Assembly: GCA_022759365.1 (NCBI GenBank)
Contig: JAEMPJ010000060.1
Location: 1 to 38,485, forward strand
Reading direction: 5' to 3'
DNA length: 38,485 nucleotides
DNA from: Thermogladius sp.
Lineage (GTDB): Archaea > Thermoproteota > Thermoprotei_A > Sulfolobales > Desulfurococcaceae
A model generated the notes under the pieces. It saw only the letters and a program-made list of their open reading frames with translations, was not told where the DNA came from and did not search any database. Below, piece by piece: positions 11,642-32,809 of this stretch; position 1 is the first letter of the stretch, and every line of letters begins with the position of its first letter. A program made the position numbers and the translations under genes.

Positions 11642-11953
11642 ATGTCGGCTCCAAGAATGGTCAAGATAAAAGTTTGGAGCACGAATGTGAATGTGTTGAA
11701 CGAGTTCACAGGCAAGATAGCTGATATAGCGAAGAAAACTGGTGTTAAACTATCAGGCCCAATACCACTACCGACTAAAAGGCTGTCTATAAGGACATTG
11801 AAGCTACCTCACGGTGAAGGGAAGAAGAAGTATGAGAAGTGGGAGATGAGGATACATAAAAGGCTTCTTTTCATAGCCGCCGATGAAAGAGTTATGAAGC
11901 AGTTGATAAGGCTTAGGGTGCCACCTGAAATCTGGATGGAGATAGAACTGTAA
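11642..11953 (+). CDS. rps10: 30S ribosomal protein S10 (S20e)
   Basis: Small-subunit protein of 103 residues. It shows the pattern KIKVWSTNVNVLNEFTGKI, the conserved GPIPLPTKRLSIRTLKLPHGEG and a C-terminal LIRLRVPPEIWMEIEL, typical of crenarchaeal S10. ATG 11642 is preferred, with AAGGG eight bases upstream; the in-frame TTG at 11636 would fall inside that spacing. It is 38 bases downstream of EF-1A and converges on the minus-strand microgene at 11990-12046. Confidence 0.95.
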   Translation: MSAPRMVKIKVWSTNVNVLNEFTGKIADIAKKTGVKLSGPIPLPTKRLSIRTLKLPHGEGKKKYEKWEMRIHKRLLFIAADERVMKQLIRLRVPPEIWMEIEL

Positions 11954-11958
11954 AAAAA
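11952..11958 (-). terminator. Oligo-T tract downstream of the microgene (minus strand)
   Basis: Read on the minus strand, seven T bases lie about 32 bases after the stop of the 18-codon ORF, and another TTTTT lies just past that stop at about 11984-11988. On the plus strand the same gap has TTTGTTTT for rps10. The A/T tracts could thus terminate both converging transcripts. Confidence 0.4.
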
Positions 11959-11989
11959 CTTTAATAAATTTGTTTTAAGCGTAAAAACC

Positions 11990-12046
11990 TTATTTCTTCT
12001 CTTCCTTCTTCTCCTCTTTCTTCTCCTTCTTGCCCTTCTTGCTCAT
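11990..12046 (-). CDS. 18-residue Lys/Glu-rich microprotein, unrecognised
   Basis: An ATG-to-TAA frame encodes MSKKGKKEKKEEKKEEKK. It is only 18 residues, eleven of them lysine and five glutamate. Three signals argue that it is translated. AAGGTG lies at 12052-12057, five bases before the ATG. A TATA-like gtttttaag lies at 12090-12098, which predicts a leader of about 20 bases. T tracts follow the stop. Lysines are mostly AAG and glutamates mostly GAG, matching neighbouring genes. The composition suggests an RNA-associated or ribosome-associated peptide, but I do not recognise a family. The alternative is that the pyrimidine-rich plus strand simply helps terminate rps10. Confidence 0.5.
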   Translation of the reverse strand: MSKKGKKEKKEEKKEEKK

Positions 12047-12089
12047 ACCAACACCTTCAGCTCTTCGAGTTTAAACTTTCTCCCATAAT

Positions 12090-12098
12090 CTTAAAAAC
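12090..12098 (-). promoter_or_regulatory. TATA box for the 18-codon ORF
   Basis: On the minus strand the element reads gtttttaag and lies about 44-52 bases before the ATG at 12046. Initiation about 25 bases downstream would leave a short leader containing the AAGGTG ribosome binding site. Confidence 0.4.
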
Positions 12099-12189
12099 AT
12101 ATCTGTTTGTTTCCGCGAGTATCATGATCATCCCGTTGAAAAACGGCTGGAGAACCGGTTTTTCACAATTTTTTTGTATTAAGTCCAAG

Positions 12190-12276
12190 CGCCGGGGGCG
12201 GGATTCGAACCCGCGCACCCTGTTACAGGGCACTGGCTCTCCAGGCCAGCCCCTTAGGCCGCTCGGGCACCCCGGC
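12190..12276 (-). tRNA. tRNA-Ser (anticodon GGA)
   Basis: The cloverleaf can be drawn in full: acceptor GCCGGGG pairs with CCCCGGC, the anticodon stem CTGGC pairs with GCCAG around a loop carrying GGA (plus-strand positions 12240-12242), and the T stem GCGGG pairs with CCCGC around TTCGAAT. A long variable arm closed by CCCTG/CAGGG is the class II feature expected for serine. The discriminator is G and CCA is not encoded. No intron is present. A minus-strand TATA element lies upstream at 12306-12314. A tRNA-Ser beside rps10 is a common crenarchaeal arrangement. Confidence 0.96.
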
Positions 12277-32676: not shown

Positions 32677-32809
32677 GGGCCCGTAGCTCAGCCAGGCAGA
32701 GCGGCGGGCTCCAGATCCAGGCTATGGGTCAAATGACCCTTAATAGGGGGATGAATTGGATCTGGAGGGAGTGACCCGTAGGCCGGGGGTTCAAATCCCC
32801 CCGGGCCCA
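32677..32809 (+). tRNA. tRNA-Trp (anticodon CCA) with a 59-base intron
   Basis: Exons form a full cloverleaf: acceptor GGGCCCG with CGGGCCC, anticodon stem 32704-32708 with 32775-32779, anticodon CCA at 32711-32713, and T stem GGGGG with CCCCC around TTCAAAT. The discriminator is A, with no encoded CCA. The intron spans 32715-32773, after position 37. It fits a strict bulge-helix-bulge: central helix CTCC (32709-32712) with GGAG (32768-32771), 5' bulge AGA cut after 32714, and 3' bulge TGA cut after 32773. The intron also holds a hairpin, GGGTC with GACCC, at 32726-32739. Confidence 0.95.
32715..32773 (+). other. tRNA-Trp intron
   Basis: The 59-base insertion is bounded by bulge-helix-bulge signals. 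Inside, TCCAG (32716-32720) pairs with CTGGA (32762-32766), and an AAAT-capped hairpin occupies 32726-32739. A GGATGAA string at about 32759 region precursors was considered as box C, but no CTGA box D is present, so it does not look like the box C/D guide seen in euryarchaeal tRNA-Trp introns. Confidence 0.85.

Follow-up and report, generated by a model that had tools for sequence, protein, structure and literature searches.

The window, meaning the whole 38,485-nucleotide stretch of Thermogladius sp. DNA that was analysed, carries a very short open reading frame on its minus strand, in the interval that separates the S10 gene from a tRNA-Ser gene. This ORF starts at 12046 and ends at 11990 (57 nt including the TAA) and reads ATG AGC AAG AAG GGC AAG AAG GAG AAG AAA GAG GAG AAG AAG GAA GAG AAG AAA TAA. 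The features assigned at the locus are as follows.

11990..12046, minus strand: microgene ORF, ATG to TAA, encoding MSKKGKKEKKEEKKEEKK, 18 aa, net charge +5 (from the sequence and frame conservation)
12052..12057, minus strand: Shine-Dalgarno-like AAGGTG, separated from the ATG by 5 bases (from the sequence; GGTG kept in 4/4 genus genomes)
12091..12097, minus strand: TATA-like TTTTTAA (unchanged in the four-genome alignment)
12098..12130, minus strand: upstream element GATCATGA...ACAAAYAGATA, adjoining the TATA-like box (from the four-genome alignment)
11983..11987, minus strand: T-tract TTTTT right after the ORF stop (GGTTTTT after the stop unchanged in four genomes)
11952..11958, minus strand: further T-tract, TTTTTTT, which overlaps the stop codon of S10 on the opposite strand (T6-T7 kept in four genomes)
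stop at 11951-11953, plus strand: S10, flanking gene, convergent with the microgene
12189-12276, minus strand: tRNA-Ser(GGA), flanking gene on the other side of the microgene

A preliminary description of this DNA had proposed a real microgene that possesses a promoter-like element and a ribosome binding site of its own, and this proposal was supported. AAGGTG was found five bases before the ATG (12057-12052), TTTTTAA at 12097-12091 and T tracts 3' of the stop at 11987-11983 and 11958-11952; the placement between S10 (+) and tRNA-Ser (-) was confirmed, and the ATG, frame and stop are kept in three relatives. From the position of the TATA-like TTTTTAA we infer a transcription start about 22 bases before the ATG. 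The roughly 30-base element 5' of the TATA-like box is largely invariant among the four aligned genus genomes and is possibly a BRE combined with a regulator site, and the TTTTT at 11983..11987 is a probable termination signal. By eye, a possible hairpin (GAAAAAC..GTTTTTC, minus strand, about 12132-12160) was seen between tRNA-Ser and the microgene promoter in the window's genome (G000), and G001 has CCCG..CGGG at a similar position. Elsewhere in the window, Rfam reports a 133-base tRNA match on the plus strand (32677-32809) that ARAGORN did not report and that probably contains an intron.

Codon use had been described as like that of the neighbouring genes, and the counts agree. Lysine is encoded by AAG and AAA in the proportion 8/2 and glutamate by GAG and GAA in the proportion 4/1, ratios that match those of EF-1A (31/9 and 26/6, respectively). 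The microgene strand is nearly all purine, with a 39-base A/G run, and the stop-free nature of such a strand had been overlooked in the preliminary description. A strand lacking T cannot hold a stop codon, so that the open frame alone is uninformative and independent coding tests were needed.

The near-pure purine strand, which makes an open frame automatic, also favours a non-coding reading, in which the frame would be a by-product of a pyrimidine plus strand serving as an S10 mRNA 3'-end or termination element, or of a purine-rich small RNA made from the minus strand. Pyrimidine-rich 3' ends are plausible in archaea. Several observations speak against this reading. When the DNA of seven species pairs was aligned without reference to frame, the third codon position took 21 of the 24 substitutions (P = 6e-8), and every gap was a multiple of three in length. 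When the set was widened to nine pairs, including more distant ones, 32 of 47 substitutions were at this position (P = 1e-6), and one pair showed +1/-1 gaps that cancel each other. Furthermore, the middle base is A in 322/339 all-purine codons, with both purines present at the other two positions, which is not what a neutral purine tract gives. The Shine-Dalgarno sequence, ATG and stop are conserved, and members of the family found at other loci do not lie downstream of S10. The non-coding reading is accordingly judged distinctly improbable. At the level of sequence, these comparisons demonstrate that purifying selection acts on the microgene reading frame.

A fifth-order Markov model of the window was used to generate 12 Mb of sequence, and none of its 7,097 Shine-Dalgarno-ATG sites opened such an ORF. 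A reversed-pattern control gave 0 matches in 40 genomes. On the strength of this simulation, the control and the conservation of the frame in four genus genomes, we consider a chance origin of the ORF excluded, and its standing as a real microgene well supported.

The order S10, ORF (minus), tRNA-Ser (minus) is common to all four genus genomes, the window's included. The peptide of G003 is identical to that of the window, and the underlying DNA differs at just two synonymous third-position sites, while G001 and G002 encode MSKKKEKKEEKKEEKKAEKK, which is two codons longer with gaps that are all multiples of three. TTTTTAA, GGTG, the ATG, the position of the stop and GGTTTTT 3' of the stop are invariant in the four. 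Frame-breaking indels and loss of the ATG, the changes in relatives that would speak against coding, were absent: the indels are multiples of three and the G003 changes are synonymous. It had also been anticipated that the S10/tRNA-Ser gap of related genomes would hold a K/E frame with synonymous changes. This was borne out in the four genus genomes but not beyond them, as no K/E microgene was found in the S10/tRNA-Ser gap of other genera in the family. Because the gap held no such gene there, pattern searches took the place of reliance on positional orthology alone. The tRNA-Ser lies on the strand opposite S10 in the window's genus and on the S10 strand in most other genera of the family, and it seems that tRNA-Ser, perhaps together with the microgene, was inverted or reinserted in this genus.

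The first search pattern (GGTG, spacer, ATG, K/E run) gave matches in 9 of the 40 genomes of the window's family. These were stand-alone ORFs of 16-20 codons, located at other loci outside the window's genus. With pattern variants and reading of the loci, 41 stand-alone microORFs of 14-24 codons were gathered from 35 Thermoproteota genomes, mostly at unrelated loci; chance matches of the wider patterns, which were many, were removed by inspecting the frame of each. Members span 6 of the 11 families of the order and also occur in four genomes of the phylum that lie outside the order (G307, MAKKKKEEKKKEEKKKEEKK; G262, MSSTAEKKEEKKEEKKKKKK; G327, MAEKKPEEKGKKKKK; G233, MSPCSRKKKEKKEKKK). Within the window's family, 17/40 genomes and 6/16 genera were positive. 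Many genomes of the order gave no match with these patterns, whose narrowness makes the microgene counts lower bounds. GGTG precedes most dispersed members, a feature partly built into the search, and GAGG as an alternative Shine-Dalgarno sequence retrieved mostly unrelated matches and one real member (G024). A TATA-like motif lies upstream of 24 of 37 family members, where shuffled sequences give 7.1 and at most 14 in 500 shuffles.

A Cys-containing sister type (MPCKKK...) was found in G008 (MPCKKKASEKKKEEKKQ), G020 (MPCKKKASGEKKKEEEKKQ), G032 (MGCKGKKKKEEKKQ) and G150 (MPRRCGKRKKEKKEEKEK), while a search for this type found none in the window's genus. The K/E and Cys types occur together in six genomes (G008, G020, G049, G032, G108 and G117). 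The K/E gene has the same neighbourhood in G008 as in G020, and the Cys gene likewise has matching surroundings in G008, G020 and G048. In G015, G041 and G052, each from a different genus, the K/E gene is found no more than about 2.5 kb from a shared neighbour, which we call RecB-like from a reading of its sequence, and the G041 counterpart of the G015 K/E gene contains one Cys. This synteny supports orthology for parts of the family. Between different loci, including the window and other genera, the low complexity of the sequence places homology beyond proof from sequence, and members may possibly have converged on the same composition.

In several Desulfurococcaceae the Shine-Dalgarno sequence of the microgene is part of, or next to, a short G/C hairpin (e.g. 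CCCC-GNAAA-GGGG) that could mask it. Six Desulfurococcaceae leaders were folded, and only those of G020 (z -2.8) and G052 (z -2.1) clearly exceeded shuffled sequences; the leader of the window's own microgene showed no stable hairpin when folded against shuffles. A hairpin covering the Shine-Dalgarno sequence was therefore rejected as a general feature of the family, being limited to some Desulfurococcaceae members and missing from the window's leader. The hairpins of G020 and G052, together with the shortness of the ORF and its richness in Lys codons, would fit a leader peptide or regulatory uORF that controls a downstream gene, for example by lysyl-tRNA supply. However, the next gene downstream in the window is S10, which is on the opposite strand, so that there is no co-directional gene directly downstream to control. 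The neighbours also vary among genera, and with the window's leader unstructured we regard this explanation as very unlikely.

The preliminary description had likened the composition of the peptide to the basic tails of ribosomal proteins. This likeness did not hold, since the K and E residues offset one another to leave a net charge that hardly departs from +5. Sixteen K/E-type representatives, taken one per genus save for three g7 members that differ in sequence, have net charges with an s.d. of 0.48, and 12 of them stand at exactly +5, although their lengths run from 15 to 24 and their K and E counts vary. With signs drawn at random at the K:E ratio of the family, the s.d. was 3.49 and 0/5000 draws were as tight, a test that is not a clean probability because relatedness among members inflates the constancy of charge. 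The Cys type is looser (s.d. 1.10 against a null of 2.98). We consider the constant net charge, as read from these sequences, the most informative clue to function.

A link to the translation machinery had also been suggested for the peptide. This was not supported, because it rested on adjacency to S10 and tRNA-Ser, which is unique to this genus; elsewhere the neighbours are unrelated. The proposal can nevertheless be put more specifically, as a ribosome-bound peptide with a role comparable to eL41 or bacterial bTHX, which would be a structural ribosomal protein of hyperthermophiles. The peptide is basic and tiny, it adjoins S10 in this genus, and eL41 and bTHX are likewise basic, encoded on their own and very short, with about 25 residues. 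These two are, however, Arg-rich and conserved in sequence. The window peptide has no Arg, and the K/E type is of low complexity throughout, almost without Arg and with 3-6 acidic residues; its K/E balance and want of Arg and aromatics are unlike either protein. Proximity to S10, confined to one genus, does not argue for a ribosomal role outside it, and a sequence search of PDB chains found no match to the microgene peptide, unmodelled density being beyond the reach of such a search. Small crenarchaeal ribosomal proteins have been newly found by cryo-EM, among them aS33/aS34 (PMC11698992) and aL45-47, the latter along with an unassigned density, SX1 (PMC10516650). On balance we hold a ribosome-bound peptide to be rather doubtful.

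The N-terminal tail of eS25 (S25e) has a similar Lys-rich start. A tail or fragment of eS25 was nevertheless rejected, as the eS25 gene (PF03297) is separate and intact at another locus in 20/20 genomes checked. The blocks of K and E in the K/E peptides (KKEEKKEEKK) resemble charged single alpha-helix (ER/K) motifs, which are long, near-neutral E4K4-type repeats that form a stable helix and serve as linkers. The K/E peptides are much shorter, have a net charge of +5 and are encoded by a stand-alone gene instead of forming a linker.

A second, apparently undescribed type of microprotein was observed, which is acidic and Trp-rich, 25-41 aa long, with a net charge of -17 to -24 and a C-terminal W. 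In the window's genome it is represented by MLWLEEEWEEEWEEEEPEEEWEEEEWEEEW (G000:C1:79300-80200, L179; about 499-591 of that piece, minus strand). Dozens of genomes of the order, and some beyond it, contain this E/W type (see also loci L216, L217, L218 and L219), which has no Pfam or NCBIfam match and, for the one member tested, no PDB match. The opposite charges (+5 and about -20), together with the presence of both types in G000, G001, G015, G020, G024, G026, G032, G117 and G123, raise the idea that the K/E peptide partners the E/W microprotein in a charge-complementary complex. Against this, the K/E and E/W genes are unlinked in the genome, and many genomes with the E/W type yielded no K/E microgene. 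Such a partnership thus appears improbable.

The microgene has a start, a stop and a ribosome binding site outside annotated genes, and its frame is under selection, as expected of a microprotein gene. In this it resembles archaeal small proteins encoded by sORFs, such as those of Methanosarcina mazei defined by Ribo-seq and peptidomics (PMC11456600), whose ORFs are also short, unannotated and separate from annotated genes, each with a start, a stop and a ribosome binding site. Unlike those, the K/E peptides are known here from sequence. They fall below most small proteins of this kind in length, and what marks them out is composition, a constant net charge and the layout of the gene, not the order of residues. 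Scanned against Pfam-A and NCBIfam, four family members with 20 or more residues, a set that does not include the 18-residue peptide of the window, had no match up to E = 10, and no description of the K/E family was found in the literature, of which coverage was partial. Small unannotated proteins are already known, but we could not find a family united by net charge and gene layout described in the literature, Pfam or NCBIfam.

Taken together, the ORF is very probably a genuine coding microgene and a member of an undescribed Thermoproteota family of 14-24-residue Lys/Glu peptides, and we infer that it is transcribed and translated. Members of the family have a stand-alone layout, often with a TATA-like box, followed by a Shine-Dalgarno sequence, ATG, 14-24 codons and a stop. 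Given the promoter-like element and own Shine-Dalgarno sequence, the lack of a fixed partner gene and of a hydrophobic core, and the constant +5, a free polycationic peptide is the simplest reading. Such a peptide, disordered or helical, would act as a +5 polycation that docks on a fixed negative surface, either a structured RNA (the ribosome or another RNP) or DNA. Selection would then bear on how much net charge the peptide carries and on roughly how long it is, not on the order of its residues. That the free peptide acts by such charge matching with a fixed anionic partner, most likely a structured RNA, or DNA, is a tentative proposal. It is conceivable, if somewhat more speculative, that there is a phylum-wide class of polycationic micropeptides in which +5 is held while sequence, length and place drift, with co-existing K/E and Cys-K/E forms that would serve hyperthermophiles as a nucleoid counter-ion or as a permanent constituent of an RNP, for instance the ribosome.

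Genes of 14-24 codons fall below the usual annotation length, so a widespread component of hyperthermophiles may be overlooked in many Thermoproteota genomes. The family provides a concrete list of genes for small-protein mass spectrometry and for those parts of crenarchaeal RNP cryo-EM maps where density is unassigned. Should the constraint on charge be real, this would be a gene conserved by a bulk property, its net charge, almost without conserved sequence.
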